Of a DNA stretch of 32,187 bases, positions 1 to 16,697 are shown one piece after another (the stretch's first letter is position 1; each line of letters opens with the position of its first letter). The DNA lies in NCBI GenBank assembly GCA_019243445.1, contig JAFAUH010000188.1:1-32187 (forward strand), given 5' to 3'. The notes beneath the pieces were generated by a model, which saw nothing but the letters and a program-made list of their open reading frames with translations, did no database searches and was not told where the DNA came from. This DNA comes from Streptomycetaceae bacterium (GTDB taxonomy: Bacteria > Actinomycetota > Actinomycetes > Streptomycetales > Streptomycetaceae). Made by a program: the position numbers and the translations under genes.

Positions 1-37
1 CGGTTCGGCGAACGTGGTGCGTTGAGTGGGTGTAGCG

Positions 38-126
38 AGCGCGCGGTGGCGCGCGGAAATGCCTGTGACGCAGGCGTCCGGGCCTTTGGGGACAGGCGGC
101 GTGCGAGGCGTCCTCTGCACGCCGCC
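38..126. other. Cluster of three hairpin-forming inverted repeats
   Basis: Three inverted repeats follow one another here: CGCGC/GCGCG around positions 40-55, a 5-5-5 stem GCCTG/CAGGC at 61-75, and a perfect 10-bp stem (95-104 with 117-126, 12-base loop). They lie left of the tetR gene and beyond the operator at 148-184. If a gene off the left edge is read leftward from that operator, these stems would be in its 5' leader; otherwise they may be terminators. No T-run follows any of them on either strand, so I do not call them terminators. Confidence 0.4.
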
Positions 127-147
127 CGCCCGGACACCATCAATCTA

Positions 148-184
148 TGGCACGCGGTGCCATCAGTAAAGACACTGCGTGCCA
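148..184. promoter_or_regulatory. Duplicated TetR-type operator
   Basis: TGGCAC-GCG-GTGCCA at 148-162 is a perfect 6-3-6 palindrome. A second, weaker copy (170-184, AGACAC-TGC-GTGCCA) matches it at 10 of 15 positions. The centres are 22 bp apart, two helical turns, so two dimers would sit on the same DNA face. The site lies about 50 bp beyond the 3' end of the tetR gene, not before it. I infer that it controls a leftward gene outside the window, and that the neighbouring TetR is the candidate binder. On the minus strand TTTACT followed 17 bases later by TAGATT could be promoter elements overlapping the palindrome. Confidence 0.5.
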
Positions 185-235
185 AAAATTTTCTTTTCCT
201 GCTACTCGTGCAGATCGCAGGCAGGTTTGAAGGGG

Positions 236-1012
236 TTATCCCGCCAGAGGGTCATGGGTGCCGAGCGCCTTTTCGACCGCGCGCAGCACCTCGGCGGGGG
301 AAGTGTTCGTACGAGCCACCGCCACCACTACCTCGCTGCCGCGCGGCTCGGCCGGGGGCTGTGCCGGCTTGCTCCGGCCACGACCCACACCCATCCCCGT
401 CCCGAAAGTCTCCCTGATCACATCGAAGGCGTGCGCCAGCTGCGCCTCCACATCGCCCTTTCCGCCCGCTCGCAGCCAGCGCCGCAGCACATGGTTGTGA
501 GCGGCCACCACGGCGGACGCGGCCACCTCCGCGAGCAGCGGATCGTCATCGCCGACGCGGTGCTGCGACTCATCGAAGTGGCCCAGCAGATAGCGGGTGA
601 ACAGTCGGTCGTAGCGGGCCACCGAGGCGATCTCGTGCTCGCGCAGCGCCGGGACCTCGCGGGTGAGCTTGTAGCGTGCGACGGAGACTTCGGGGGATTC
701 GGCGTACATCCGCAATACTTCGGTAATGCCGCGGCAGACCACCTCCAGCGGATGTTCGTCCGGCCCCGCACTGTCAAGTACGGCCTGGACGCGGACGAGG
801 GTGTCGTCGTGGTCCGGGAAGATCGCCTCTTCCTTGGAGCGGAAGTGGCGGAAGAATGTGCGCCGGGCGACCCCGGCCGTCGCGGCGATCTCGTCAACCG
901 TGGTCGCTTCATACCCCTTTGTGGAGAAAAGGTGCATCGCGGCGGTGGACAGCTCTTGGCGCACTCGGTGCCGCTGAGCAGTGGTACGGGCGGTACTGCG
1001 CGGCTGGGACAT
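236..1012 (-). CDS. TetR/AcrR family transcriptional regulator
   Basis: 258 residues. The N-terminal 25-75 region is a TetR helix-turn-helix: AMHLFSTKGYEATTVDEIAA, then TAGVARRTFFRHFRSKEEAI, the classic recognition-helix pattern. The remainder is a helical ligand-binding domain that I cannot assign to a ligand. The ATG at 1012 is chosen because the longer open frame to 1219 runs through the upstream dehydrogenase gene out of frame and reads as low-complexity shadow; no good ribosome site precedes 1012 (only GGGAG about 20 bases upstream). The gene follows the 3-hydroxyacyl-CoA dehydrogenase by 46 bases on the same strand, so co-transcription is likely. A fatty-acyl-CoA-type ligand would fit this context, but that is inference. 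Confidence 0.85.
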   Translation of the reverse strand: MSQPRSTARTTAQRHRVRQELSTAAMHLFSTKGYEATTVDEIAATAGVARRTFFRHFRSKEEAIFPDHDDTLVRVQAVLDSAGPDEHPLEVVCRGITEVLRMYAESPEVSVARYKLTREVPALREHEIASVARYDRLFTRYLLGHFDESQHRVGDDDPLLAEVAASAVVAAHNHVLRRWLRAGGKGDVEAQLAHAFDVIRETFGTGMGVGRGRSKPAQPPAEPRGSEVVVAVARTNTSPAEVLRAVEKALGTHDPLAG

Positions 1013-1058
1013 GGGGGGAACGTACCGCACTCCCCTGGTGGACGTTCCCACGCGCTCG

Positions 1059-2924
1059 TCAGGCCCGGGCGTATTCGCGGAAGCCGCGGCCGGTCTTGCG
1101 ACCGAGACAGCCCGCGGAGACCAGGTGCTCCAGCAGCGGGGCGGGGGCGAGTCCGGGGTCGCGGAACTCGCGGTGCAGCACCTGCTCGATGGCGAGCGAG
1201 ACGTCGAGACCGACCACATCGAGGAGTTCGAACGGACCCATCGGATAGCCGCCGCCGAGCTTCATCGCCGTGTCGATGTCGTCCACGCTCGCGTAGTGCT
1301 CCTGCACCATCTTCACCGCGTTGTTCAGATAGGGGAACAGCAGCGCGTTGACGATGAAACCAGCCCGGTCACCGCAGTCCACCGGGTGCTTGCGCAACCT
1401 CTTGCATACCTCGTGCACGGTGGTGCGTACCTCGTCGGTGGTCAGCACCGTCCGGACCACCTCGACGAGCTTCATCGCCGGAGCCGGATTGAAGAAGTGC
1501 ATGCCGATGACGTCCTGCGGTCGCGAAGTGGCTGTGGCGATCTCGACCACCGGCAGCGAGGAGGTAGTCGTGGCCAGCACCGCGTCGGCCTTGCACACCT
1601 TGTCGAGCCTGGCGAACAGCTGCTGCTTCACCGGGAGTTCCTCGGCGATCGCCTCGACAGCGAGATCGACATCGGCGAAGTCGTCCAACGACCCCGACGG
1701 GGTGAGGCGGGCCAGCGCCGCGTCCCGGTCCTCGGCGGTCAGCCGCCCCTTGTCGACGGAGCGGGCAAGGGATCCCGCGATCCTGGAGACCGCGGAGGCG
1801 GCCTTCTCCAGCGAGCGGGCGGCCAACACGACCTCGTACCCGGCCTTGGCGAAGACCTCGGCGATGCCGCAGGCCATCGTGCCGGAGCCGGCAACACCGA
1901 CGCGCCGCACCGTGCGACCTGCGCCAGCCGTCGTGCCGACGGTGGAGGTCTCGCTCCGCTGCGCTTCGCCTTTGCTCTTCAATTCGTCCTCGGATGCAAA
2001 GTCATCCGGGACTTTCGTCCGGCTGCCGGGGGATTGGTAGGTGTAGAAACCGCGCCCGGACTTGCGGCCGGTCAGCCCGGCAGCGGCGAGGTGGTTCAGC
2101 AGCGGAGTGGGCGCGTGCAGCCGGTCGTGCGAGGCGGCATACATCGCTTCGAGCACCGTCTTGGCGGTGTCGATGCCGATCAGGTCGAGGAGCTCAAGCG
2201 GCCCCATCGGCAGACCACAGCCCAGCTTCATCGCCGCGTCGATGTCCTCGCGGGTCGCGTAGCGTGCCTCATACATCGCAGCGGCCTGGTTGAGGTAGCC
2301 GAACAGCAGCCCGTCCGCGAGGAATCCCGGCCGGTCGCCTACCGGGACGGCCTCCTTGCCGAGGCTGCGGACCAGGGCCGTGACGCGCTCGGTCGCCTCC
2401 GGCGAGGTGAGGACGGTGGAGACCACCTCGACGAGCTTCATCGCCTGTGCGGGAGCGAAGAAGTGCAGGCCGAGCACGCGCTCCGGATGGGCGGTGTCGG
2501 CGGCGAGCTGCGTCACCGACAGCGCGTTGGTCCCGGTGGTCAGGATCGCGCCAGGTTTGACGACGGCATCGAGCGCGGCGAAGACCTCGCGCTTGAGCTC
2601 GTAGTTCTCCGGCACGACCTCGATCACCAAATCGGCCTCGGCAGCCGCCTGCAGGTCGGCGAAGGTACAAAAGCGGGCGAGCGCGGCGTCGCGCTCGACT
2701 TCGGTGATCCTGCCGTGCTCGACAGCGCGGGTGGTGGAATGCTCGAGGGCGGCGACGGCCGCGGCGGCGGCGCGCTCGGCCGGCTCGATGCCAATGACGT
2801 GGTGACCGGCCCTGACCAGGACCTCGGCGATACCGGAACCCATCGTGCCGAGCCCGACGACGGCGACGGTCAAGAAGGGGGAAGCCGGGGAGGGGGAAGC
2901 GGGCGTAGCGGACGGACGGTCCAT
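1059..2924 (-). CDS. Tandem 3-hydroxyacyl-CoA (3-hydroxybutyryl-CoA) dehydrogenase, two fused modules
   Basis: 621 residues holding two complete 3HCDH modules in tandem, about twice the length of a single PaaH/Hbd-type enzyme. Module 1 has the Rossmann motif GLGTMGSG (24-31) and HFFAP (154-158); module 2 has GSGTMACG (346-353) and HFFNP (477-481). The family oxidises (S)-3-hydroxyacyl-CoA with NAD(P), or reduces acetoacetyl-CoA. Module 2 keeps the canonical residues (SSL 455-457, H477, N480, N526 in FIVN). Module 1 has A157 for Asn and D204 (FLAD) where FIVN is expected, so it may be weak or altered. The ATG at 2924 has GGAG seven bases upstream; the longer open frame to 3275 lacks similarity. 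The next gene on the strand is tetR. A role in butyryl/ethylmalonyl-CoA supply or beta-oxidation is inferred. Confidence 0.88.
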   Translation of the reverse strand: MDRPSATPASPSPASPFLTVAVVGLGTMGSGIAEVLVRAGHHVIGIEPAERAAAAAVAALEHSTTRAVEHGRITEVERDAALARFCTFADLQAAAEADLVIEVVPENYELKREVFAALDAVVKPGAILTTGTNALSVTQLAADTAHPERVLGLHFFAPAQAMKLVEVVSTVLTSPEATERVTALVRSLGKEAVPVGDRPGFLADGLLFGYLNQAAAMYEARYATREDIDAAMKLGCGLPMGPLELLDLIGIDTAKTVLEAMYAASHDRLHAPTPLLNHLAAAGLTGRKSGRGFYTYQSPGSRTKVPDDFASEDELKSKGEAQRSETSTVGTTAGAGRTVRRVGVAGSGTMACGIAEVFAKAGYEVVLAARSLEKAASAVSRIAGSLARSVDKGRLTAEDRDAALARLTPSGSLDDFADVDLAVEAIAEELPVKQQLFARLDKVCKADAVLATTTSSLPVVEIATATSRPQDVIGMHFFNPAPAMKLVEVVRTVLTTDEVRTTVHEVCKRLRKHPVDCGDRAGFIVNALLFPYLNNAVKMVQEHYASVDDIDTAMKLGGGYPMGPFELLDVVGLDVSLAIEQVLHREFRDPGLAPAPLLEHLVSAGCLGRKTGRGFREYARA

Positions 2925-3421
2925 CGCAAAACTCCAGAGGGCTGCCCCGCACGGGGGCTTGACGACATAAGGGGTGCACGGACACAGGAGTACCCGCGGA
3001 AGGAGTGGCGGGCCCTGTCCCGGAGCCTCGCCGCGATGCTGCCGAACCGACGTACTGCTATTGATGGTGCTTTTGGTGCCTTTGGTGCTGTGCCACGGCG
3101 GCTGCGTCACCAGGCCGCCGTGAGCGGTGAGCCCGTACGGCCACGGTCGGTGGCGTACGGCCTCGCGGTTCTGAGCGTAACTCTCCAGTAACCTGGGCGC
3201 CAGACTTCCGCCCATGTGATCTTTGTCTGGTACAGATGAGCATTCCGGGGATCCCGTCCCTGCGCCTCGGGGCACCTCATGAGACAGGGGCGACGAGCGT
3301 ACGCCCTTCGGTGTGCAGCCCCTGGATTCGATTGCCTCGCCCGTCAGTGGTTGGCTGTGTGCGGCGGCGCAGCAGACACATGAGCCGACTCACGTCGCAC
3401 AAGACATCCAAGGAGACAGAC
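2925..3421. promoter_or_regulatory. Divergent intergenic region between the dehydrogenase and the SRPBCC gene
   Basis: 497 bases with no supported gene; the open frames crossing it are read-through extensions of flanking genes. It must carry the promoters of two divergent genes. An imperfect 10-bp tandem repeat (three units with TGGTGC/TTGGTGC cores) occupies 3061-3090. A small palindrome TCTG-GTA-CAGA lies near 3227-3237. I cannot place the -35/-10 elements with confidence. Confidence 0.4.
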
Positions 3422-3865
3422 ATGGCGCAGGTCGAGGCCACCACGCAGCGCGTGGTCGCAGCCGCACCCGAGGCGGTTTTCGCGGCACTCGCCGACTACA
3501 GCAAGACCCGTCCTGAGCTGCTGCCCGAGCAGTTCAGCGAGTACGAGGTGCGGGAGGGCGGCACCGGGGCGGGCAGCGTCGTGCACTGGAAGCTGCAGGC
3601 GACGCAAAAGCGGGTGCGCGACTGCCTGATCGAGGCGAGCGAGCCTTCCCTCGGGCAGCTGGTCGAGCGGGACCGCAACTCCTCCATGGTCACGACGTGG
3701 ACCGTCACTCCCTCGGGTGAGGGAGGCGCCAAGGTGGTGGTGACAACCACCTGGCAGGGTGCGAGCGGCATCGGCGGTTTCTTTGAGAGGACTTTCGCCC
3801 CCAAGGGCCTCAACCGCATCCACGATGCCGAACTCGCCCGCCTCGCCGCCCATGTGGAGAGCTGA
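3422..3865 (+). CDS. SRPBCC (START/Bet v1-like) small-molecule-binding protein
   Basis: 147 residues with the SRPBCC/polyketide-cyclase-like pattern: VVAAAPEAVFAALADYSK near the N-terminus, central beta strands (GSVVHWKL, TTWTVTP, KVVVTTTW) and a C-terminal helix ending LNRIHDAELARLAAHV. Such proteins form a helix-grip cavity that binds hydrophobic ligands; many are stand-alone proteins of unknown role, some are cyclases or lipid carriers. The ATG at 3422 has AAGGAG seven bases upstream, which decides the start over the longer frame from 3236. It is a single-gene unit followed by a strong hairpin. Substrate unknown. Confidence 0.75.
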   Translation: MAQVEATTQRVVAAAPEAVFAALADYSKTRPELLPEQFSEYEVREGGTGAGSVVHWKLQATQKRVRDCLIEASEPSLGQLVERDRNSSMVTTWTVTPSGEGGAKVVVTTTWQGASGIGGFFERTFAPKGLNRIHDAELARLAAHVES

Positions 3866-3936
3866 CCACGTTCACCGGTTGGGGTGGATTTGATTGCCGC
3901 GTGCCTTTGAGGCCGCGGCTGACAACTACCCGACAC

Positions 3937-3980
3937 GCCACGGCCCCGGCTCCCGCGAGGGCGGGAGCCGGGGCCGTGGC
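3937..3980. terminator. Perfect 20-bp hairpin, bidirectional terminator
   Basis: The left arm 3937-3956 and right arm 3961-3980 are exact reverse complements, 20 bp with a GAGG loop. It sits between the 3' end of the rightward SRPBCC gene and the 3' end of the leftward oxygenase gene, the expected place for a bidirectional terminator. No T-run follows on either side, as is common in actinomycetes. Confidence 0.8.
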
Positions 3981-4030
3981 TTCAGCTCAGCCACGGTCCA
4001 ACGGAGTCCTTCAGGCCGAGAGGAGGTCGG

Positions 4031-4837
4031 TCAAATGACTTCGACACGCTGCAGATGACGCGATGTCGAGCCAGTGAACGCGTTGCGGCCATGGATGAGG
4101 GAGAAGTTGTCGGCGATGACGATGTCGCCCGGCTGCCAGGCATGGGCGTAGCAGTACTGGGGCCGGTGCACCAATTCGCTCATCATGGCGAGGAAGTCGT
4201 CGGTCTCCTCTTGTTGGTTCCCCTCCACAGTAACGAACACGGGGTTCTTGTAGACGGTGGGGTCCAGTGGCTCGGCGAAACGCAGGACGGGCACGCCAGT
4301 ACTCGGGTGCTGGCTGACCAGCTTTTCGGTGATCTGGCCTCCGTAGTGCGCCAACTTCTCCGTCTTATAGGTGAGACTGATGCCCTCCCACTGTCGGCGT
4401 AGGTCCTCGTCAGCATCCCGGTAGACAGCAGTAGTGTCACAGAAGACAGTCTCGCCGCCTGCGTCGAGGGCCGCGTCCAGGCACTGGAAGAAGAAGAATC
4501 GCGGATCGGCCTCGACGAAGGCGCCGTCCCAGTGGAAGGGTACGTCACCGCTGGCGAAGAGGTAGTTCTTGGGTTTGTCCTGGACAACCAGGTCCATCAC
4601 CGCGCCGACTTCCCATTCGAGTAACTCCCCCCAGAGCCGGCAGTAATCGGCGAATTCCTGCTTGCCGAGTATGGAAAAGCCGCGCAGCACCAAGACCCGC
4701 GACTCCTCGGTCCACCTCCTAAGCGTCTGGACCGGTATGTCGGTGATCCGGGTGCCTTCAGGCACCTGGAGGACACGGCCGAAGGGACGGAGCGGGGACT
4801 GGTCCATCATGATGCCGAGCGATGACGATCGGGGCAT
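4031..4837 (-). CDS. Fe(II)/2-oxoglutarate-dependent oxygenase, TauD/PvcB (IsnB)-like
   Basis: 268 residues of the TauD/TfdA clavaminate-synthase fold. The metal triad is visible: H102-W-D104 in VPFHWDGAF and distal H249 in LIHGRNAF, with R260 or R264 as the likely 2-oxoglutarate-binding arginine. GGETVFCDT (127-135) is the usual conserved loop. Next to an isonitrile synthase this is the expected PvcB/IsnB partner, which oxidises the isonitrile amino acid (decarboxylative desaturation to a vinyl isonitrile, or ring formation, in known systems). The ATG at 4837 has AAGGA six bases upstream and overlaps the synthase gene by 31 bp; the alternative ATG at 4810 would overlap its stop as ATGA but has no ribosome site. 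L72 is a TTA codon (4624-4622). Confidence 0.85.
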   Translation of the reverse strand: MPRSSSLGIMMDQSPLRPFGRVLQVPEGTRITDIPVQTLRRWTEESRVLVLRGFSILGKQEFADYCRLWGELLEWEVGAVMDLVVQDKPKNYLFASGDVPFHWDGAFVEADPRFFFFQCLDAALDAGGETVFCDTTAVYRDADEDLRRQWEGISLTYKTEKLAHYGGQITEKLVSQHPSTGVPVLRFAEPLDPTVYKNPVFVTVEGNQQEETDDFLAMMSELVHRPQYCYAHAWQPGDIVIADNFSLIHGRNAFTGSTSRHLQRVEVI

Positions 4838-5946
4838 GTGTGGTCCTTTTCCAAGGGGTTTATGGTGAGGTGCGGAGCCACGAAGTGACTGGGGCGTCCG
4901 TTGCGCCAGACGATGGAGGCACCCACTTCCTCGGCGACCCAGCGCTTGGTCAGGTGCAGCTTGTTGCCGTCGTCAAGCACGGCACTGTGCCACGGAGTCA
5001 GCCAGCTGTCCTTGGTAGGCATGAGCTGTAGGCCTAACTTCTCGGAGTGCGGCGGCTGCGGGTGTATCGACAGCCTTACCGCTTCCGGAAACGTTTCTGC
5101 AATCACTCTGCTCCAGGCGTCACTTCGACGCATTACCTGGTAGGTGGTGGCCTTCGAGTTGTTCCTCAGCTTCGTCTTGGACACTCCTTCATTCTCGCCG
5201 TTGGCCAGCGTGTCCTCGTACACGAAGCGGTGGATTCCGTTGAACATCGAACGGGTGGCGTTGTCGGTGCGAACGCTGTTCCTCATTTCCTCGAGATTCA
5301 CGGCGTAGTCGCGTTCGAGAATCTCTCGCAGCCTCGGGTAATAGTTGCAGCCGAATGCGTCATCCAGCCCGAAAATATCGAGCGATTCCAAGTTCGCTGT
5401 CTTGATGATTTCCGCCAGGCCTTGGCGGTAAGCGGTCGCCGCACTGTCGGTCACCCCAACCACATCACCGAAGACGTGTCCGTCGGAGCATATCGTCACA
5501 CGGGCACCTGGTGAATAGAAATGACTCACGTGGTCGCATATCGACTGCAGGAAGCGCAATGATTCCAGTTCGCCGAGATCCGGTAGAGCGCCCAGTACTT
5601 TTTTCCTGTTGGGTGATTTCGCCGGAAAAGCCGGGATGGCGAAGAGTATTGTTTCGCGGTTCCGGATGAATCGTTCGATCTTTGAGTGTCGTGCCTCGAA
5701 ACACGTCGTGCAGGGATCGAGCAAGGTGCAGGGAACGCGCGACTTTTCTTCGTCCGTGGGCCCCGGTCGATCCACTCGTTGGTGACGGTGGAGCAGTTGG
5801 AAAATCAGGCGAGAGACCCGAGAAATGGAAAGTGATGTACTTTTCGCGTGCAAGCTCGACATATCCCTCATATCTGGTAAAGTAGATGTCCCCATCCTTC
5901 TTCGGCCGGCTTGTTGCCTCCTCATTGACTCATCGACTAGGCGCAC
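4807..5946 (-). CDS. Isonitrile (isocyanide) synthase, PvcA/IsnA/DIT1 family
   Basis: 379 residues, a little longer than usual for PvcA because of an extra 40 or so N-terminal residues. Family hallmarks: AFPAKSPNRKKVLG (106-119), CSDGHVFGD (153-161), RLSIHPQP (291-298) and WHSAVL (319-324). Known members convert the alpha-amino group of L-tyrosine or L-tryptophan to an isonitrile using ribulose-5-phosphate as carbon donor; which amino acid is used here cannot be read from sequence. The GTG at 5946 is chosen because AAGGGGAG lies nine bases upstream; ATGs at 5925 and 5895 are alternatives. A Cys group (C73, C79, C82) precedes the core. Codons 23 and 304 are TTA (5880-5878, 5037-5035). First gene of a two-gene operon with the oxygenase; G+C is visibly lower than in neighbouring genes. 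Confidence 0.88.
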   Translation of the reverse strand: MRLVDESMRRQQAGRRRMGTSTLPDMRDMSSLHAKSTSLSISRVSRLIFQLLHRHQRVDRPGPTDEEKSRVPCTLLDPCTTCFEARHSKIERFIRNRETILFAIPAFPAKSPNRKKVLGALPDLGELESLRFLQSICDHVSHFYSPGARVTICSDGHVFGDVVGVTDSAATAYRQGLAEIIKTANLESLDIFGLDDAFGCNYYPRLREILERDYAVNLEEMRNSVRTDNATRSMFNGIHRFVYEDTLANGENEGVSKTKLRNNSKATTYQVMRRSDAWSRVIAETFPEAVRLSIHPQPPHSEKLGLQLMPTKDSWLTPWHSAVLDDGNKLHLTKRWVAEEVGASIVWRNGRPSHFVAPHLTINPLEKDHTCPDRHRSAS

Positions 5947-6075
5947 TGTTGACTACTCCCCTTCTGGCTCGTTAACCGTGAGTCGACGCGGAAGGCTGCG
6001 GGGATCGCTCCGACTCGTCTGCGCAGCTGAGGCATGGAGCGCACTCGGAGAGTAGTGCGAGTGTCTCGTGCATCC

Positions 6076-6105
6076 ATTACAGAACGCCCCGTGTCGGGCC
6101 CGCAA
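6076..6105 (-). promoter_or_regulatory. Candidate promoter of the isonitrile synthase operon
   Basis: On the minus strand TTGCGG (6105-6100) and TGTAAT (6081-6076) are separated by 18 bases, a fair match to a housekeeping-type promoter. The leader to the GTG at 5946 would be about 120 bases. Pattern match only. Confidence 0.35.
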
Positions 6106-6144
6106 GAAACGTTTTAGGACAGCTTGTGAGCCGCGGCGAAGGTA

Positions 6145-6173
6145 TTGCGAAGCCGGAATGTCCGGTAAATGAT
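6145..6173 (+). promoter_or_regulatory. Candidate promoter with palindromic spacer for the prenyltransferase operon
   Basis: TTGCGA (6145-6150) and AATGAT (6168-6173) are 17 bases apart. The spacer contains the perfect 5-3-5 palindrome CCGGA-ATG-TCCGG (6153-6165), where a repressor would block polymerase. The leader to the small ORF at 6444 would be about 260 bases. Speculative. Confidence 0.3.
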
Positions 6174-6443
6174 CGTTTGGCCTCCGGAGAACCAAGCCGC
6201 CCCCGAGCGATGGGTCGCACAGATCTGTGGAACGGGGCGGACGCGGGTTATGGGGGCCGCCAGGTTTTGAATTCTGTCCGAGATTGGCAGTGGCAGTCAT
6301 GCCAGGTGGTACTGTGCTTCGGCGGCGAGAAGTGAAGCCGTTTTTGGTTTAGGGTACTTGCTGACGATCTGCAAGAGCTTTGGTTTTCCCGGGCACAACT
6401 TTTCTGCTGTTGTCGCCCGTTCTCGAAGCCGAGGAGGGAACTG

Positions 6444-6539
6444 ATGGGCACTGCTGCAAGGCCGGACTGCGGTTCGATGGAATTCTTATCCCTGCTCCCA
6501 TTATCATACGGCGCGCGAACCGGGCGGTGTGAGCAATGA
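6444..6539 (+). CDS. 31-residue leader ORF coupled to the prenyltransferase gene
   Basis: A small ORF with its own strong ribosome site: GAGGAGGG at 6431-6438, five bases before the ATG. It ends with a TGA at 6537-6539 that overlaps the ATG of the prenyltransferase gene (6536) as ATGA. The peptide starts MGTAARPDCG, has a short hydrophobic stretch (FLSLLPLSYG) and no recognisable domain. Codons 15 and 20 are TTA (6486-6488, 6501-6503). The prenyltransferase has no convincing ribosome site of its own and an in-frame stop at 6530-6532 just upstream, so translational coupling through this ORF would explain how it is translated. It may be a true small protein or only a leader whose TTA codons gate the operon. 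Confidence 0.55.
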   Translation: MGTAARPDCGSMEFLSLLPLSYGARTGRCEQ

Positions 6540-7468
6540 CGAAACCTTCGAAGCGGCAGTTCATCCACGATTCCCTCACCATCCGCCGTCCAGAATTCAT
6601 GGTCGCGGAAATTCCTATCGTTATGATCCCGGCGCTGTTGATGGCATCCAACCCATCCCATCTCGTCAGGTGGCAGTTCGCTGCCGCCTTCGCACTCATC
6701 TATCTGACGGCCAATTTTGGCGACATGATCAATTGTCTGGCTGATCGCGACCTTGACGCCGTCTACAAGACCCGGTTATCCAGCGCCGTTTACCGCCTCG
6801 GTGTCGGCAATGTGCGATGGCAGCTGAGGATCACGTGTGCCGCGGTGATTGCCCTTTCACTTCTTTTGGCGGTCGGCACCCGGCACTGGGACCTGATTCC
6901 GCTCGTTGGGGTTGAACTCCTGTGGGTGGCCCAGTACTCGGTGCCTCCGCTGCACTTCAAGAGGCGTGGTCTGTGGCAGATGGTGACTCTGTGCGCGATC
7001 ATTTTTGCGCTGCCCATGACGATCGTGGCACGGACGCTTCCGGGCTATCCGTCTTGGGAACTCCTGCTGTTCTTCGTGGGGTTCGGCACCATGCAGGAGG
7101 GCATCATCCTGGTCAACACGGCGGAGGATATACCCGAGGATCAGCAGGCCGGTCTCCACACATCCGCACTCGTCCTGGGACTGTCCCGCTCGGTGGCGGT
7201 CGGTATCGCTATGGTCGCCATCGGCGGAGCAGCCTGCGCGGCCTGCCTGACAGCCATCGGCAACCCCTCGTGGGGGCTTGCTGTTTTCATGCTCAGCTTG
7301 TTGTGGGTGCTCTGGGAAATGGTCTCGATCTGGCTCCGGGTACGGCGCCAGCCGCTGACGGCAGGAATGGCCATCCTGCGGCCACGAGCTCGCAGGATGC
7401 CGTTGTGGATCACGGCGACCGGATTGAGCGTTTTGCTGACGGCCGGGTTCGTGGTCAGTCACCGCTGA
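6536..7468 (+). CDS. UbiA-superfamily membrane prenyltransferase
   Basis: 310 residues, nearly all hydrophobic helices (about 8-9 membrane segments). The two metal/prenyl-diphosphate motifs are present: N66-C-L-A-D70-R-D-L-D74, matching NDxxDxxxD with Cys for the second residue, and N194-T-A-E-D198-I-P-E-D202. YSVPPLHFKRRG (134-145) is the usual family signature. UbiA enzymes transfer isoprenyl chains to aromatic acceptors in the membrane; some bacterial members act as terpene cyclases. Here the acceptor may be the isonitrile product of the divergent operon; that is inference. The exporter gene follows by 45 bases. L81 is a TTA codon (6776-6778). The start is fixed by an in-frame stop six bases upstream. 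Confidence 0.85.
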   Translation: MTKPSKRQFIHDSLTIRRPEFMVAEIPIVMIPALLMASNPSHLVRWQFAAAFALIYLTANFGDMINCLADRDLDAVYKTRLSSAVYRLGVGNVRWQLRITCAAVIALSLLLAVGTRHWDLIPLVGVELLWVAQYSVPPLHFKRRGLWQMVTLCAIIFALPMTIVARTLPGYPSWELLLFFVGFGTMQEGIILVNTAEDIPEDQQAGLHTSALVLGLSRSVAVGIAMVAIGGAACAACLTAIGNPSWGLAVFMLSLLWVLWEMVSIWLRVRRQPLTAGMAILRPRARRMPLWITATGLSVLLTAGFVVSHR

Positions 7469-7513
7469 CCGCCTGCCTCCACATAGCGCCAGATTCTCTC
7501 CCAAGGAGGCACG

Positions 7514-9751
7514 ATGTTCACTTGGCTCGGCCAGTGGGTCTTACGACGCGCTCGACTGGTCCTGGTGCTCGTAGGTTTGGCCTTGGCCATCGCCACGACA
7601 CTGGCCACCGGTGCCATGGATGTGCTCAAAGTCGGCGGCTTCCTCGATCCCCACGCACAGTCAAGCCAGGTCACCCAGCTCATCGATACCCAGTTCGGCG
7701 GGAAGGTGAACCTGGTCTTCCTGGTCGAGGCCTCCCACGGTTCGGTGGACTCGCCCGCAGTACGGTGGGCCGGACAACGGCTCACCGGTCAGCTGGCCAG
7801 GGAGCCGGTTCTCACCAATGTGACTTCCTACTGGTCCGTCGGCAACCCGGCATTGAAGTCGGCCGACGGCAGATACGCGGTCATCGCCGCCCACCTCAGC
7901 GGGGATGAGAACACCGCTTTGCACCGCACCCTGCACCTCCACGACAAATACGCGGGCACCACCGGCCCGTTGAAGGTAGCACTGGGTGGCTGGCAGGGTG
8001 TCTACCGGGACATTTTTGTCAACGTTACGAAGAGTCTGGTGCTCGCCGAGACGATCGCCGTCCCGCTCACCCTGATCCTGCTGCTGGTCGTCTTCGGCAA
8101 TGTGGTATCGGCTCTGCTGCCGCTGGCCATCGGAATCTCCGCCATCGTCGGCACCTTCGGCCTGCTGCGCGTCCTGGGCAGCGTCTCGGACGTTTCGATC
8201 TTCGCCGCCAACGTCACCACCGCCCTCGGCCTTGGCCTGGGCATTGACTATGCCCTGCTGATCGTAGCCCGGTTCAGCGAACGCCTGGCCGCGGGCGACG
8301 AGGTACCGCAAGCCCTCCAGCACACCGTAAGCACGGCGGGGCGCACCATTTTCTTCTCCGCGACCATCGTCATGGCGGCCCTGGCCGCCATGCTGGTCTT
8401 CCCGCTGTACTTCCTGCGCTCGTTGGCCTACGCGGGCATGGGTGTCGTGGCCATCGCCGCCCTCGCCGCGCTGTTCGTCGCGCCGGCTCTGCTGGCGCTG
8501 CTCGGGCACCGGGTCAACCCTGGACGGCGCCGGGTAAAAGGTGGACGGCACCGGGCCATGAGGGGCCGGCACCGCACCACAGTTGGACGACTGCCGCGGA
8601 TGCGAGGCATTCAAGGCAGCGACACGCCGTTTTGGGCGTGGCTGGCGCGCGGAGTGAGCCGTCGACCGGTGATCACCACGCTCCCGGTGGTCGCGGCCCT
8701 GCTACTGGCGGCCAGTCCACTGCTGGGGGTTGTGTTCGGCACGCCAGACGAGCGGGTACTCAAGTCAGACGTGACCAGTCGACAGGTCACCACCATCCTC
8801 GATAAGGAGTTCAAGGGGATCGGCAGCGACACGGTAGAGGTAGTCGTCACGCCGCGAGTGAAAGACGCAGCACTCGCGGCGTACGCGTGGCGGCTGTCCC
8901 GACAGCCGGACGTCACTGCTGTGACCAGCAGCGTTGGTATCTACGCCGGAGGGCAGCAGGTATCCGGCCAGGCCGATCAGCGGCGGAGCAGTGCCCAAGC
9001 GCAGTGGCTGTCCGTCTCCACCGGTCTGGTGCAGAAGTCCGAACGGGCACTCGGTCTCGTCCAGCGGATCCGGGACGCGGCTGGCCCGGCGAGCACCCGG
9101 ATCTTTGTCGGCGGCACCGATGCCGAATTGATGGACACCCGGTCGGCCATCGGCTCCCGGCTGCCCCTTGCTGCTGCGATCATCATCGTCACCACCTTCG
9201 CGGTGCTCTTTTTGTTCACCGGAAGCCTGTTGCAGCCATTGCGTGCTCTGCTGCTCAACGGACTGGTGTTGGCCTCCACGCTCGGCGCGATGGTGTGGAT
9301 CTTCCAGCGGGGCCATCTGAAGAACGTGCTGGGTTTCACACCACAGCCGACCGACGCCACGGTGGCGGTCCTCATCTTTTGCGTGCTGTTCGGGCTCTCC
9401 ATGGACTATGAGGTATTCGTAGTGGCCCGCATCAAGGAGATGAGGCAGGGGGGTCTGGACACCGCGGCGGCGGTCGAGAGAGGGCTGGCGAAGACCGGCC
9501 GGATCGTCTCGACCGCCGCTGGACTGCTGGCGGTGAGCTTTCTGGCGTTCGTCAGTAGTTCGATAAATTTCATACAAATGTTTGGACTGGGTGCGGGATT
9601 GGCGATCCTCCTGGACGCGGCCATCGTCCGCGGAGTACTGGTGCCAGGGGCGTTCGCGCTGATGGGGAGGGCGGCTTGGTGGGCCCCTGGTTGGCTACGC
9701 GGTGTCGGGGACCGTTTCGCCCTGGTCGAGGAGGTGCCGGCCTCTTCTTGA
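7514..9751 (+). CDS. MMPL/RND-family transporter
   Basis: 745 residues with the MmpL layout: one N-terminal helix, a large extracytoplasmic domain (about 40-165), five helices, a cytoplasmic linker, then a second repeat of helix, domain and five helices. The proton-relay signatures are present in both halves: GLGIDYALLIVARF (about 238-251) and FGLSMDYEVFVVARIKE (about 619-635). Actinobacterial MmpL proteins export lipids and hydrophobic metabolites; its place 45 bases after a prenyltransferase suggests export or self-protection for the locus product. The ATG has AAGGAGG five bases upstream. Codon 10 is TTA (7541-7543). The linker after the sixth helix carries four basic heptad repeats (GRRRVKG, GRHRAMR, GRHRTTV, GRLPRMR). 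The 3' end overlaps the convergent gene by 57 bp. Confidence 0.9.
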   Translation: MFTWLGQWVLRRARLVLVLVGLALAIATTLATGAMDVLKVGGFLDPHAQSSQVTQLIDTQFGGKVNLVFLVEASHGSVDSPAVRWAGQRLTGQLAREPVLTNVTSYWSVGNPALKSADGRYAVIAAHLSGDENTALHRTLHLHDKYAGTTGPLKVALGGWQGVYRDIFVNVTKSLVLAETIAVPLTLILLLVVFGNVVSALLPLAIGISAIVGTFGLLRVLGSVSDVSIFAANVTTALGLGLGIDYALLIVARFSERLAAGDEVPQALQHTVSTAGRTIFFSATIVMAALAAMLVFPLYFLRSLAYAGMGVVAIAALAALFVAPALLALLGHRVNPGRRRVKGGRHRAMRGRHRTTVGRLPRMRGIQGSDTPFWAWLARGVSRRPVITTLPVVAALLLAASPLLGVVFGTPDERVLKSDVTSRQVTTILDKEFKGIGSDTVEVVVTPRVKDAALAAYAWRLSRQPDVTAVTSSVGIYAGGQQVSGQADQRRSSAQAQWLSVSTGLVQKSERALGLVQRIRDAAGPASTRIFVGGTDAELMDTRSAIGSRLPLAAAIIIVTTFAVLFLFTGSLLQPLRALLLNGLVLASTLGAMVWIFQRGHLKNVLGFTPQPTDATVAVLIFCVLFGLSMDYEVFVVARIKEMRQGGLDTAAAVERGLAKTGRIVSTAAGLLAVSFLAFVSSSINFIQMFGLGAGLAILLDAAIVRGVLVPGAFALMGRAAWWAPGWLRGVGDRFALVEEVPASS
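8521..8604 (+). repeat. 21-bp imperfect tandem repeat inside the exporter gene
   Basis: Four consecutive 21-bp units (starting at 8521, 8542, 8563, 8584) begin TGGACGGC/GGGCCGGC/TGGACGAC and encode seven-residue units each starting Gly-Arg. The copies have diverged but period and frame are kept, giving a strongly basic segment of about 28 residues in the cytoplasmic linker between the two transporter halves. Confidence 0.65.
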
Positions 9752-11449
9752 GGTGGAGAGCGCGGGCAGTGAGGTTATTGTCGACCTGGGAACGCGAGGT
9801 GACGTCCCTGGTGCTGCGTCCCCGCAGGGAGTGCCCCGCGGGATCCGATAGCTCCCCCCAATGCGGAACACCCCGGCATCTCGGGCCCGAAGCCGAGTCC
9901 ATTCCCCCTCCCGCTCCAGACATCCTGGACCACCGCTCACGCCCAACCACGGTGACCACGCCACACGTACCAGGAACGACCCTGCCTCGGGGACACGCAC
10001 CCGCAACTCGCCCTGGCCCGCCCGCGCCACCGTCGACGGCGCCGACGTCAGCGGCACCGCGTCCGCGACGGCGTACATGCGCCAGTGCGCGTCCCGCCAG
10101 ACCGGTCGCAGCCACGGCTGCCCGGCCATGACGATCCGTGCTTCCGCGGCTGCCGCGCTGTCGGGCGCGGCGTCGGGAAGTACCACATACGTCACCGCCC
10201 ATCTCCGCAGCCATGCGTGATACGTCGCAGGCGTGAGCTTTCCGTCGTAGAAGACCGGGTTGCGTTCGACATCGAGCTGGCGGTTCCAGCCCCGCGCGAG
10301 ATCGACGTACGGGCTCAGACCCGCCGACTCCCAGTGGGTTTTGGCAGCCACAGCCTCGACGCGTCCCCGGTCGGCACCCAGCCTCCCCAACTCGACGATC
10401 AGTGGCTTGGCGTACTCGGACCAACTCGCCGCGGATGCCGTACTGACCAGATCCTGCACCGGTTTTACCACCTGCCAGCCCGCAGCGAAGACAAACGCCA
10501 GCAAGACCGCGAGTCTTTGCCTGCCATGCGGGAGCGCCGGCACTGCCGCAAGCAGCACCATCGCGGCGAACAGCAGTGCCAGCCGCTCCACGTTGCTGCC
10601 GATCGGCGACGGGACCGCGAGCGTGAGCAGGTCGCCGGCAATGTAGACCCAGGCCCCGGCCCGCACCGGCCGCCAGGACTTCGGCGCCCACACGGCGATG
10701 GGCAGCGCCGTCGCAGCCACGAGCGCCGCACCGCCGACCGAAAACGGCTGCACACCGTAGAAGGGGAAAAGCAGCGTGGCCACCCCGACCACCAGCGGGG
10801 GGCCGGCCAGCAGCGCGAACGACTCCTTGCGACGTCCCGTCAGAAACAGTGCGACCCCTGCGACCAGCAGGAACAACCCAGCTACCGGGCTGGAGCACGC
10901 CGCAATGACCCCGAGCACGAAAGCACCGACGTTACGCGCGAAGCGCCCGCCGACGCTCTCGTACACCACCAGGGTGGCCGCCAGGCCGAAGAGCACGCCG
11001 ACACTGAAGGTGATGCGCCCCGACGCGGTGTCGCAGGAAAGCGCGAACGCGCCCCACACCGCGGGGTACAGCGGACGATCGATACCCGAACGCATCAGCA
11101 GGCGTGCCAGCACCGCGGCTGAGAAGATCCCGGCCATGACCGCCGTGGTGCGCACCCCCAGCCACGCCATGAGATAGGGGGTGAGCACGCTGTAGGAGAC
11201 GGGGTGCATCCCGCCGTACCACGACAGGTTGTACGCCGAACCGGGGTGTGCGCCGACGAACTCGGCCCATGCGTACTGCGCTGCCATGTCGCCGCCGTCG
11301 GTGGCGAAGAACACCGCCCAGAGCAGGTGCAGCACGGCGGCCACGAGCACTGCCGCAACTACTGGGTGGCGCAACCAGTACAGCGGCCGTGGGACGACCG
11401 GTGACGGTGTCAAACAAGCAGCGTGCGGGGATGACTCAAGGGCGTTCAT
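9695..11449 (-). CDS. Polytopic membrane protein, GT-C-like architecture, function unknown
   Basis: 584 residues. The first about 320 residues form some ten hydrophobic helices; the rest is a soluble domain with beta-rich segments. The first extracytoplasmic loop after helix 1 has acidic residues (FFATDGGDMAAQYAWAEF) followed by SAYNLSWYGGMHP, a layout reminiscent of GT-C glycosyltransferases that use polyprenyl-phosphate sugars, but I cannot name a family and no catalytic residue is proven. The last about 35 residues are Ser/Arg/Pro-rich and overlap the convergent exporter gene by 57 bp, suggesting recent extension of one of the two 3' ends. The ATG at 11449 has no clear ribosome site. Whether it belongs to the isonitrile locus is open; it has no TTA codon that I found. 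Confidence 0.6.
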   Translation of the reverse strand: MNALESSPHAACLTPSPVVPRPLYWLRHPVVAAVLVAAVLHLLWAVFFATDGGDMAAQYAWAEFVGAHPGSAYNLSWYGGMHPVSYSVLTPYLMAWLGVRTTAVMAGIFSAAVLARLLMRSGIDRPLYPAVWGAFALSCDTASGRITFSVGVLFGLAATLVVYESVGGRFARNVGAFVLGVIAACSSPVAGLFLLVAGVALFLTGRRKESFALLAGPPLVVGVATLLFPFYGVQPFSVGGAALVAATALPIAVWAPKSWRPVRAGAWVYIAGDLLTLAVPSPIGSNVERLALLFAAMVLLAAVPALPHGRQRLAVLLAFVFAAGWQVVKPVQDLVSTASAASWSEYAKPLIVELGRLGADRGRVEAVAAKTHWESAGLSPYVDLARGWNRQLDVERNPVFYDGKLTPATYHAWLRRWAVTYVVLPDAAPDSAAAAEARIVMAGQPWLRPVWRDAHWRMYAVADAVPLTSAPSTVARAGQGELRVRVPEAGSFLVRVAWSPWLGVSGGPGCLEREGEWTRLRARDAGVFRIGGSYRIPRGTPCGDAAPGTSPRVPRSTITSLPALSTSRRGRHLLDQGETVPDTA

Positions 11450-11673
11450 ATGACAACCATGCCTACCGTATCACAAAATTCTTACTCTCTGTAGCGATGT
11501 TTTACCTATTGTGATGAGTCGGGCTTCTGGCGGAAACCGCACGACGGTGCTGGACGGCGTGATGGCGCGGACGATCAATATGCTTGCCATAGCGCGATCC
11601 TGACCCCGCCGTGGCAACGCCCGGATGGGCCTGTCTCTACTTTCCGGGACGGGACTGTCGATAGAGTCAGTAC
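11450..11673. promoter_or_regulatory. Divergent intergenic region with leaderless promoter candidate
   Basis: 224 A+T-richer bases between the leftward membrane protein and the rightward peptidase operon. ATCACAA (11470-11476) and TTGTGAT (11509-11515) form a 7-bp inverted repeat. TAGAGT at 11662-11667 would serve as a -10 box placing the transcript start at or next to the A of the ATG at 11674; there is no ribosome site there, so a leaderless mRNA is likely. Confidence 0.4.
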
Positions 11674-12516
11674 ATGAAGATCCTCATCTCTGCTGACATG
11701 GAGGGCGCCACCGGCGTGACCTGGCCCGCTGATGTGCTGCCCGGCACTGAGCAGTGGCAGCGCTGCCGCAGGATGTTCACTTCCGACGTGAATGCGGCGA
11801 TCGCCGGCTTCTACGACGGCGGAGCCAATGAGGTGATGGTCAACGAGGCGCACTCGACCATGCGCAACCTGCTGCTCGAAGAGCTCGACGAGCGGGCGCG
11901 GATGCTCACCGGGCGGCACAAGGACCTGTCGATGATCGAAGGCGTGCAGCACGCACCGCCTCAGGGACCGGATGGGATCGCGTTCGTCGGTTATCACACC
12001 GGGGCAGGCAGCGAGGGCGTCCTTGCCCATACCTATCTCGCCAATTCCATCACTGGGGTGTGGGTCGACGGTGAACCGGCGAGCGAGGGCAGGCTGGGCG
12101 CGTTGGTGGCGGGGGAGTTCGGAGTGCCGGTGGTGCTGGTGACGGGCGACGATCGCACTGGGCTCGATGCACAGCGCTATGCGCCGCACGCGCGCACCGT
12201 GGCCGTCAAGGAGTACGTGTCGCGGTACGCGGCGGTATGCCGGCCACCGGCGCGCACCGCCGAGGAGATCCGGGCTGCCGCGAAGGAGGCGACAGCGCTC
12301 GCGACGCGTCATGCACCGGTATGTGGCGGGCCGTTCACCGTTGAGGTGGAGTTCGACGCCGCTCATCTGGTCGGAGCGGCGGCCGTTGTACCGACCGTCG
12401 AGCCGAGCGGGGAGCGCCGCGTGCGCTACACCGCAGCCACCATGTACGACGGCATCCGGTGCTTCAAGGCCGTGACCACCTTGGTCTCGGCAGCGGTCGA
12501 GGAGGCATATGGCTGA
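11674..12516 (+). CDS. M55-family D-aminopeptidase (DppA-like)
   Basis: 280 residues, matching the length of DppA. The N-terminal MKILISADMEGATGV carries the zinc ligands D8 and E10; H60 (NEAHSTMRN) and H108 (VGYHTG) correspond to further ligands known from Bacillus DppA. GVLAHTY (115-121) and VDGEPASEG (131-139) are also typical. The family removes N-terminal D-residues such as D-Ala from small peptides, so recycling of peptidoglycan fragments or other D-peptides is the usual idea. First gene of a four-gene operon; its 3' end overlaps the next start by 8 bp. No ribosome site precedes the ATG, pointing to leaderless translation. Confidence 0.88.
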   Translation: MKILISADMEGATGVTWPADVLPGTEQWQRCRRMFTSDVNAAIAGFYDGGANEVMVNEAHSTMRNLLLEELDERARMLTGRHKDLSMIEGVQHAPPQGPDGIAFVGYHTGAGSEGVLAHTYLANSITGVWVDGEPASEGRLGALVAGEFGVPVVLVTGDDRTGLDAQRYAPHARTVAVKEYVSRYAAVCRPPARTAEEIRAAAKEATALATRHAPVCGGPFTVEVEFDAAHLVGAAAVVPTVEPSGERRVRYTAATMYDGIRCFKAVTTLVSAAVEEAYG

Positions 12517-13873
12517 CATGGTGAGTGACGCACCGGGTGAGGAACAGGCACTCGAGGAAGTGGTCCGCTTCACCTCCGACCTGATCAGGATTGATACGAG
12601 CAATCGCGGCGGCGGTGACTGCGCCGAACGCCCGGCGGCGGAGTACGTCGCGGAACGCCTGGCCGAGGTCGGGATCGAACCGCGGATCTTGGAATCGGCG
12701 CCCGGGCGCGCCAATGTGGTGGCGCGCCTCGAGGGTTCGCAGCCCGACGCCGCAGGGCTGCTGGTGCACGGTCATCTGGACGTGGTACCCGCCGAGCTCG
12801 CGGAGTGGAGCGTGCACCCGTTCTCCGGTGAGATCCGCGAGGGGCTGGTGTGGGGCCGCGGCGCGATCGACATGAAGAACATGGATGCCATGGTGCTGGC
12901 CACGGTCCGTGCCTGGGCGCGTGAAGGCCGTCGGCCGCGCCGCGACATCGTCCTTGCCTTCACCGCCGATGAAGAAGACAACGCCGCCTTCGGATCCGAC
13001 TATCTGGTGCGCCAACACGCAGGCATCTTCGAGGGCTGCACCGAAGCCATCGGTGAAGCGGGCGCGTTCACCTTGCACGACGGCCCGCAAAGGCGGCTGT
13101 ATCCGATTGGCGCGGGGGAGCGCGGTACGGCGTGGCTGAAACTCACCGCACGAGGAAGACCAGGCCACGGCTCCAAGAGCAACAGTGAGAACGCCGTCAG
13201 CAGACTCGCCGCAGCCCTCACCCGCATCGCCGAGCACCAGTGGCCGATCCGGCTCACCCGGACCGTCCACGCAGCGCTCACCGAACTCGCCGCGCTCTAC
13301 GGCGTCGACCAGGCAGAGGTGCCGGAAGTATCCAATGCAGTGAATGGGGCGGATGGGGTGGACGTCGACGCCCTTCTGCCCAAGCTCGGGCCGGCCGCCG
13401 CGCTGATCGCACCGACGCTGCGTAACAGCGCCAACCCGACCATGCTGTCGGCCGGTTACAAGATCAATGTCATTCCCGGGAGCGCCACAGCTCACATCGA
13501 CGGCCGGATCGTGCCAGGCGGAGCAGAGGAGTTCACCGAGACGCTCGACCGGCTCACCGGCCCCCATGTCGACTGGGAGTTCCACCACCGGGAAGCCGCC
13601 CTGCAGGCACCGGTCAACTCGCCGACGTATGCGGCGATGTGCGAGGCCGTCGAGCACTTCGACCCCGGAGCACACACGATCCCGTATTGCATGGCGGGCG
13701 GCACCGACGCCAAACAGTTCTCCCGCCTCGGCATCACCGGTTACGGCTTCGCACCGCTCAAACTGCCCCCGGACTTCGACTATCAGGGGCTCTACCATGG
13801 CGTGGACGAACGGGTGCCTGTCGAGGCCCTGCACTTCGGCGTCCGTGTCCTCGACCGCTTCCTCAGCCGATGA
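12509..13873 (+). CDS. M20/M25/M40-family metallopeptidase
   Basis: 454 residues. Di-zinc site residues are visible: H89-L-D91 (LVHGHLDVVP), D121 (GRGAIDMKN), E155-E156 (FTADEEDN) and H430 near the C-terminus (YHGVDERV); a lid/dimerisation domain lies at about 205-330. The family covers acetylornithine deacetylase, dipeptidases and carboxypeptidases; substrate not readable. The ATG at 12509 lies three bases after GGAGG (12501-12505), which is tight; a second ATG at 12518 gives a spacing of 12, so three residues are uncertain. It overlaps dppA by 8 bp, so the two peptidases are probably translationally coupled and act on related peptides. Confidence 0.85.
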   Translation: MADMVSDAPGEEQALEEVVRFTSDLIRIDTSNRGGGDCAERPAAEYVAERLAEVGIEPRILESAPGRANVVARLEGSQPDAAGLLVHGHLDVVPAELAEWSVHPFSGEIREGLVWGRGAIDMKNMDAMVLATVRAWAREGRRPRRDIVLAFTADEEDNAAFGSDYLVRQHAGIFEGCTEAIGEAGAFTLHDGPQRRLYPIGAGERGTAWLKLTARGRPGHGSKSNSENAVSRLAAALTRIAEHQWPIRLTRTVHAALTELAALYGVDQAEVPEVSNAVNGADGVDVDALLPKLGPAAALIAPTLRNSANPTMLSAGYKINVIPGSATAHIDGRIVPGGAEEFTETLDRLTGPHVDWEFHHREAALQAPVNSPTYAAMCEAVEHFDPGAHTIPYCMAGGTDAKQFSRLGITGYGFAPLKLPPDFDYQGLYHGVDERVPVEALHFGVRVLDRFLSR

Positions 13874-13875
13874 AC

Positions 13876-13937
13876 CGGACGCCTCGGGCGAATCGGACGA
13901 CTCGGATGACTCGGACGCCCCGGACGACCCGGACAGG
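13876..13937 (+). repeat. 9-bp tandem repeat before the S9 peptidase start
   Basis: Six full units of consensus CGGACGACY plus a partial seventh run from just after the stop of the M20 gene to the ribosome site of the S9 gene. Some units differ by one to three bases. If the S9 protein began at the ATG at 13870 the repeat would encode Arg-Thr-Thr/Pro triplets. Confidence 0.75.
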
Positions 13938-13950
13938 AGGTTCGACAGCT

Positions 13951-15969: not shown

Positions 15970-16697
15970 GCGCGCCGTACCAGATAGCCCCGGCCCCGGA
16001 AGCGTGGACACTCCCACCCGGCCCGCTCAGCGGGCCGTTGGAGAGGCCGAAGCCGGGGGCGGTGCCGCATGTGTGGCTGGTGCGCGTTGCCGGGCACCGG
16101 GAGTCGCTCGAAGACGCTCTCGCGCTCTTCGACGAGGAGGAGCAGGCGCGCTATGCCGCCTTCCTCCGGGCAGCGGACCGAGACCGCTACGCCGCCGCTC
16201 ATGCGGCACTGCGGCGTCTGCTCGGCGCCTACCTGGGTACCGGGCCGGGTGAGGTCGCCGTGGGGTGCGAGCCGTGCCCGCTTTGCGAGGGTCCGCACGG
16301 GCGGCCGGCGGTGCCGGGGGCCGGGCTGCACTTCTCCCTCTCACACAGCGGAGAGCTGGTGCTGCTCGCTTTCGCCGCGACGCCGGTCGGGATCGACGTC
16401 GAAGAGTCGCGCGATCCGGCGGTCGTCGCGGAGGTGTCGACGTGTCTCCATCAACGCGAGCAGGCCGAGTTGACTGCGCTCGCCCTTGCCGACCGGGCCT
16501 CCGCCTTCCTGCGCTGTTGGACGCGGAAGGAGGCGTATCTCAAAGGCACCGGTGAGGGCCTGTCCGGTGGTCTGTCCCGTACGTACGTCGGTACGGGGGA
16601 GTCGCCGGCGGCCGTGCCGGGCTGGACGCTGTGGGACATCCCCGTCGACGCGGGGCACGCGGCGGCGGTCGCCATGCGCCTCGAAAGCTCTTGCTGA
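15966..16697 (+). CDS. Sfp-type 4'-phosphopantetheinyl transferase
   Basis: 243 residues. FSLSHS (123-128), GIDVEE (142-147; Asp and Glu bind Mg) and WTRKEAYLKGTGEGL (185-199) are the three hallmark motifs. It transfers phosphopantetheine from CoA to carrier-protein serines of NRPS/PKS or fatty-acid systems. A Cys group, CEPCPLCEGPH (101-111), lies before the active-site strands. The ATG overlaps the peptidase stop as ATGA, so it is the last gene of the peptidase operon. No carrier protein or NRPS/PKS is in the window, so it presumably serves clusters elsewhere. The isonitrile synthase does not need it. Confidence 0.9.
   Translation: MSAPYQIAPAPEAWTLPPGPLSGPLERPKPGAVPHVWLVRVAGHRESLEDALALFDEEEQARYAAFLRAADRDRYAAAHAALRRLLGAYLGTGPGEVAVGCEPCPLCEGPHGRPAVPGAGLHFSLSHSGELVLLAFAATPVGIDVEESRDPAVVAEVSTCLHQREQAELTALALADRASAFLRCWTRKEAYLKGTGEGLSGGLSRTYVGTGESPAAVPGWTLWDIPVDAGHAAAVAMRLESSC

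Follow-up and report, generated by a model that had tools for sequence, protein, structure and literature searches.

Isonitrile pathways known to us are few, and among the isonitriles that originate from a PvcA-type synthase, we are aware of prenylated ones only in the cyanobacterial hapalindoles, made via a soluble prenyltransferase. In bacterial secondary metabolism, UbiA-type prenyltransferases include AuaA of the aurachin pathway. AuaA and the dihydroxyphenazine prenyltransferase, likened here by description, are both membrane UbiA enzymes acting on an aromatic secondary metabolite, but their acceptors come from pathways other than isonitrile biosynthesis. The second of these is a membrane-bound UbiA-type enzyme of bacterial secondary metabolism (PMC4044012). 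The hapalindole, ambiguine, and welwitindolinone clusters unite an isonitrile synthase, an Fe/2OG oxygenase partner, and a prenyltransferase to produce hybrid isoprenoid-isonitriles; the prenyltransferase P1 is a soluble ABBA-fold protein without the (N/D)DxxD motif, and the clusters contain a dedicated GPP synthase as well as MEP and tryptophan genes (PMC4236562). Domain fusion within an isonitrile pathway is found in fungi, where the synthase is fused to TauD, in a survey that makes no mention of UbiA (PMC10153163). Finally, the PvcA/PvcB pair (paerucumarin, Pseudomonas aeruginosa) and the PIsnA/PIsnB pair (rhabduscin, Photorhabdus/Xenorhabdus) belong to the same two enzyme families as the pair described here.

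The window (the whole stretch of DNA that was analysed, 32,187 nucleotides) comes from a Streptomycetaceae genome of 5.36 Mb in 414 contigs, and contains the following features.

3900..9820, extent of the cassette, missing from a sister species (genome comparison)
3937..3980, palindrome, long and GC-rich, in the stretch from the upstream SRPBCC gene to the cassette
4031..4837, minus strand, Fe(II)/2-oxoglutarate oxygenase of the PvcB/IsnB family (FeOG), 268 aa (Pfam TauD, 5.8e-46)
4807..5946, minus strand, PvcA/IsnA-type isonitrile synthase (Pfam DIT1_PvcA, 1.4e-74; PDB 3E59; tree)
5947..6535, intergenic gap separating the two divergent pairs, GC 0.59, promoter signal not significant
6444..6539, plus strand, possible leader ORF of 31 codons with a GAGGAGG ribosome site and two TTA codons
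6536..7468, plus strand, UbiA-superfamily membrane prenyltransferase, 310 aa (Pfam UbiA, 1.8e-18; alignments; AlphaFold2 model)
7514..9751, plus strand, MMPL/RND transporter, MmpL3-like, 745 aa (Pfam MMPL, 2.5e-64, in two stretches)

A profile search of positions 4031-9751 placed all four genes far above the curated Pfam cut-offs (hits of 1.4e-74 to 1.8e-18), in agreement with the earlier note, which had named the same four families at these positions. The FeOG and PvcA genes share 31 bp, and 45 bp separate UbiA from MMPL; 5947-6535 is the sole intergenic region separating the two pairs. The shared divergent control region proposed in that note is particular to the window, as is the divergent layout, all UbiA-bearing relatives being colinear. 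A sigma-70 scan of the gap returned 1 site against 1.1 expected, which is chance level, and no promoter can be claimed there. The stop codon of the ORF at 6444-6539 overlaps the UbiA start codon (ATGA), and this ORF is a possible leader peptide with translational coupling to UbiA; it was spotted after the fact and a comparable coupled ORF arose in 64 of 5000 shuffles, which makes the indication weak.

Compared with the PvcA/PvcB and PIsnA/PIsnB systems, the window adds UbiA and MMPL without a glycosyltransferase, and its two isonitrile enzymes fall in separate clades (support of 98/97 for PvcA and 100/100 for FeOG). Compared with the hapalindole-type clusters, its prenyltransferase is a membrane UbiA protein with both Asp motifs, and supply genes are absent; indeed, no ABBA prenyltransferase, GPP synthase, or MEP gene was detected by Pfam among the four cassette genes and the flanking genes examined. 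We consider it reasonably probable that these genes form a compact, mobile cassette for a prenylated aromatic isonitrile, acquired as a unit.

From gene content, motifs, synteny, fusion, and borders, all directly observed, we infer the chemistry as follows. Judging from its family, PvcA would join the amino group of an aromatic amino acid and a carbon of ribulose-5-phosphate into an isonitrile acid, which FeOG, again by family membership, would desaturate, and perhaps also decarboxylate, giving a vinyl isonitrile or an isocyanoacrylate. UbiA would then transfer a prenyl chain to the FeOG product or its precursor, as the conserved neighborhood and the FeOG-UbiA fusion described below suggest; the prenyl diphosphate donor would come from primary metabolism because the cassette contains no prenyl-diphosphate synthase gene. 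In the last and weakest step, for which the evidence is synteny in two loci, the MMPL pump would export the lipophilic product. A para-substituted phenol, such as the vinyl isonitrile derived from tyrosine, would be similar to the acceptors that UbiA enzymes use in nature, and an indole substrate is equally open. Against this model stand close PvcA/FeOG relatives at four loci (L038-L041) that lack UbiA, which is therefore dispensable for the synthase and oxygenase steps.

The synthase matches the DIT1_PvcA domain over its whole length and the solved PvcA structure 3E59 (2.6e-65) over residues 85-358. Its score against the NCBIfam equivalog for Tyr-specific PvcA is 237 bits, below the 600-bit cut-off, and the PvcA proteins of these loci form a clade that matches the FeOG clade and stands apart from the two structure-solved PvcA. 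The start at 5946 is the first possible one; homology to the nearest relative begins at about residue 31, and the true start probably lies downstream. With regard to Tyr versus Trp preference, characterised references were sought in 14 control genomes, which contain no PvcA family member, and among plasmid matches, which include no characterised protein; one such pair, on a Burkholderia plasmid, has the R/N residues of ordinary PIsnB enzymes.

The oxygenase, whose nearest solved structures are 7TCL and 3EAT PvcB, retains the metal- and carboxylate-binding residues of PvcB and PIsnB, namely the HxD...H triad and the Gly, Arg, and Trp residues (PIsnB columns 74, 101-104, 250, and 265), within a pocket signature H-W-D-G-A-F-V ... 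T ... A ... H ... R. The residues that line the substrate ring are where it departs from these enzymes: Met105-Tyr106-Lys107 of PIsnB become Ala-Phe-Val or Ala-Phe-Ala in the window clade, and position 188 is an Ala. This altered signature occurs in all 14 members of a clade with 100/100 support, seven of which have no UbiA nearby. Enzymes forming vinyl isonitriles carry K/R and N/H at the two selectivity positions and those forming isocyanoacrylates carry Leu and Cys (Kim et al. 2022, PMC9467999). FeOG of the window has V and A, and the 14-member clade V/A and A, corresponding neither to K/R107 with N/H188 nor to L with C; these residues classify an enzyme but do not prove its product, because single changes at them failed to switch it (Kim et al. 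2022, PMC9467999). Furthermore, PIsnB lost its ligand stabilisation once its Met-Tyr-Lys was mutated to Ala-Phe-Ala (PMC9467999), and since FeOG naturally carries Ala-Phe-Val/Ala its substrate may not be tyrosine isonitrile. The altered pocket may thus reflect another aromatic substrate or another outcome.

This pocket bears on an order of events that we regard as unlikely, in which prenylation precedes desaturation, or in which the isonitrile is no more than an intermediate, so that a prenylated formamide or other derivative is exported. Such isonitriles hydrate readily and isocyanoacrylate decomposed in vitro (PMC9467999), and the FeOG pocket differs from that of tyrosine-isonitrile enzymes, both of which speak for this order. 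However, the FeOGs of the UbiA-less loci L038-L041 have the identical A-F-V-T-A signature, so the change is a property of the lineage, which a prenylated substrate does not explain, and the cassette holds no hydratase gene. Three of these loci (L039, L040, and L041, about positions 2700-12300), whose PvcA and FeOG are among the nearest relatives of the window genes after those of Streptomyces sp. A012304 (L049), also encode a LysR regulator, a luciferase-like monooxygenase, one or two flavin monooxygenases, and an MFS pump. A same-clade PvcA-FeOG pair at L044:13338-17066 adjoins a flavin halogenase (WxWxIP) without UbiA, which suggests halogenated isonitriles in this lineage.

The prenylated aromatic isonitrile we favor is supported by the association of UbiA with the isonitrile genes. 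An alignment of two UbiA proteins led to the A012304 locus, where PvcA, FeOG, UbiA, and MMPL lie in this order and in one direction, with protein identities to the window of 65%, 79%, 77%, and 75%, respectively. Over 20.9 kb, nucleotide similarity (about 76%) is limited to the four genes and the flanks are unmatched. Two near-identical loci, in G340 and in Streptomyces sp. SAJ15 (counted as one genome with G796), have the order P450-PvcA-FeOG-flavin halogenase-UbiA without MMPL; the halogenase carries the WxWxIP and FxxPxxSxG motifs, and an MFS transporter and a MarR-like regulator adjoin. Beyond Actinomycetota, FeOG and UbiA form a single protein of 565 or 588 residues, with TauD as its N-terminal half and UbiA as its C-terminal half, in a myxobacterial Sandaracinaceae MAG (L051) and on two Hymenobacter plasmids (L052 and L053) whose copies are 97% identical and were counted as one. 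The PvcA-FeOG-UbiA core hence spans Actinomycetota, Myxococcota, and Bacteroidota, and the fusion in two phyla is the strongest evidence for a role of UbiA in the isonitrile pathway.

Each TauD-UbiA fusion adjoins a synthase with an N-terminal TetR-like domain in one polypeptide (L052:7212-8846, L053:7211-8845, and L051:7659-9203; Bacteroidota and Myxococcota). Both arrangements differ from the fungal one, in which the synthase itself is fused to TauD (PMC10153163). The Hymenobacter loci additionally encode a flavoprotein resembling the geranylgeranyl reductase family, with a score under the family cut-off.

The earlier note had called for a search for conserved synteny of the four genes. A second species does show it: the genes are kept together at the unrelated A012304 locus, and the core of PvcA, FeOG, and UbiA recurs in three phyla. 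Nor is the UbiA-MMPL pair consistently found without the synthase and oxygenase, the closest UbiA and MMPL homologs either adjoining PvcA/FeOG or belonging to distant other families (about 30% identity for UbiA and at most 56% for MMPL). The functional link which that note drew between the genes is borne out for UbiA by synteny, by three phyla, and by fusion, and is weaker for MMPL, which accompanies them in the window and A012304 only.

The UbiA-linked isonitrile locus is rare. It was found in two of 395 family genomes, namely G340 and the genome of the window itself, and in two of 393 Streptomyces genomes. The scan of genome contigs that led to A012304 relied on a pair of short exact patterns and overlooks diverged copies, so true frequencies do not follow from these counts. 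A broad scan of 395 Actinomycetes genomes yielded no new UbiA-linked locus, and scanning genome contigs with PvcA patterns alone, which are not conserved, returned no relative. PvcA homologs are much commoner (98 of 395 family genomes).

UbiA itself displays N66-x3-D70-x3-D74 and D198-x3-D202, invariant in all seven isonitrile-linked copies aligned. Its AlphaFold2 model (pLDDT 85.6) has the UbiA helical fold, the best Foldseek matches being solved UbiA enzymes (7BPU, 4OD4, and 8DJK among the top matches, query TM 0.64-0.68). UbiA-type terpene cyclases have similar Asp motifs, so the motifs are compatible with an intramembrane cyclase, the isonitrile pair making a separate or later-joined unit; a distant Streptomyces UbiA (about 30% identity) that adjoins mevalonate-pathway genes and monooxygenases also favors cyclisation. 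We nonetheless hold this disfavored reading to be improbable: UbiA is fused straight to a PvcB-type oxygenase in two phyla, the loci share no terpene tailoring enzyme, and a prenyl synthase gene is absent.

Five further Streptomyces UbiA matches with about 30% identity were set aside as a different family; in the two whose surroundings were read, no PvcA was found. At L037:5983-13580 and L069:6171-11494, members of this family occur with Baeyer-Villiger-like and other flavin monooxygenases, one of the two loci also having mevalonate-pathway and polyprenyl synthase genes, and they likely represent another meroterpenoid cluster.

As for the borders of the cassette, a contig of the sister species G001 (C17) matches window positions 29-3899 and 9821-16000 with 81-90% identity and in the same order, which led us to reject a contaminant origin of the contig. 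Between these blocks, G001 has a gene for an 801-aa MFS transporter instead of the four genes. Homology ends 34 bp past the upstream SRPBCC gene on the left and restarts close to the 3' end of the membrane-protein gene that follows on the right. The frame of the latter gene extends into the cassette (to 9695), beyond the end of its ortholog, and its C-terminus overlaps the MMPL gene; it reads through (9695-9820) because its original 3' end was displaced. The palindrome at 3937-3980, near-perfect over about 42 bp and 91% matched to its own reverse strand in a genome search, lies close to the left border and may be terminator-like or mark the cassette edge. GC3 is 0.68-0.80 in the cassette genes versus 0.82-0.88 in five genes flanking them; TTA codons are absent from those five but occur at least once in all four cassette genes. 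Lower GC3 and TTA codons fit a secondary-metabolite locus that was acquired recently and is under bldA-type control. Altogether, the borders and composition fit horizontal gain of the cassette as a unit; a history in which the sister species lost it and then gained the MFS gene is a less simple possibility.

The MMPL protein matches the PDB structure of MmpL3 (4.4e-94) and keeps both Asp-Tyr proton-relay pairs of this trehalose monomycolate exporter (D245-Y246 and D631-Y632), but scores far under the MmpL3 equivalog cut-off (377.7 versus 1400 bits). To our knowledge, Streptomycetaceae do not make mycolates. The protein belongs to a subfamily common in this family, with homologs of 50-56% identity in 63 of 395 genomes and none above 56% among the matches listed; next to isonitrile genes it was seen at just two loci, those of the window and A012304, and it is accessory. 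That MMPL and UbiA are unrelated neighbors of an ordinary PvcA/PvcB pair would agree with these paralogs and with the many PvcA/FeOG loci without UbiA and MMPL, yet it is very improbable given four genes conserved at an unrelated locus, a single cassette with clean borders, and UbiA beside PvcA in three phyla, the fusions already contradicting its UbiA part.

The earlier note found a membrane UbiA enzyme in an isonitrile role unfamiliar, and no paper linking UbiA to an isonitrile synthase, nor any relevant description combining isonitrile or isocyanide with UbiA or MMPL, turned up in the open-access literature searched, which leaves most subscription journals outside and is no proof that the cassette is undescribed. 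Whether these loci represent a new class of membrane-prenylated aromatic isonitriles, with a PvcA/FeOG lineage that has its own desaturation or substrate selectivity, a UbiA enzyme that can be fused to the oxygenase, and horizontal spread across Actinomycetota, Myxococcota, and Bacteroidota, seems to us evenly balanced. For genome mining, the TauD-UbiA fusion, or PvcA and FeOG with HWDGAF together with UbiA, provides a handle. The third FeOG class offers a test of what sets vinyl isonitrile versus isocyanoacrylate formation. If the proposal is true, joining at the membrane, sometimes by an enzyme fused to the oxygenase, would be a new route to lipophilic metal-binding isonitriles.
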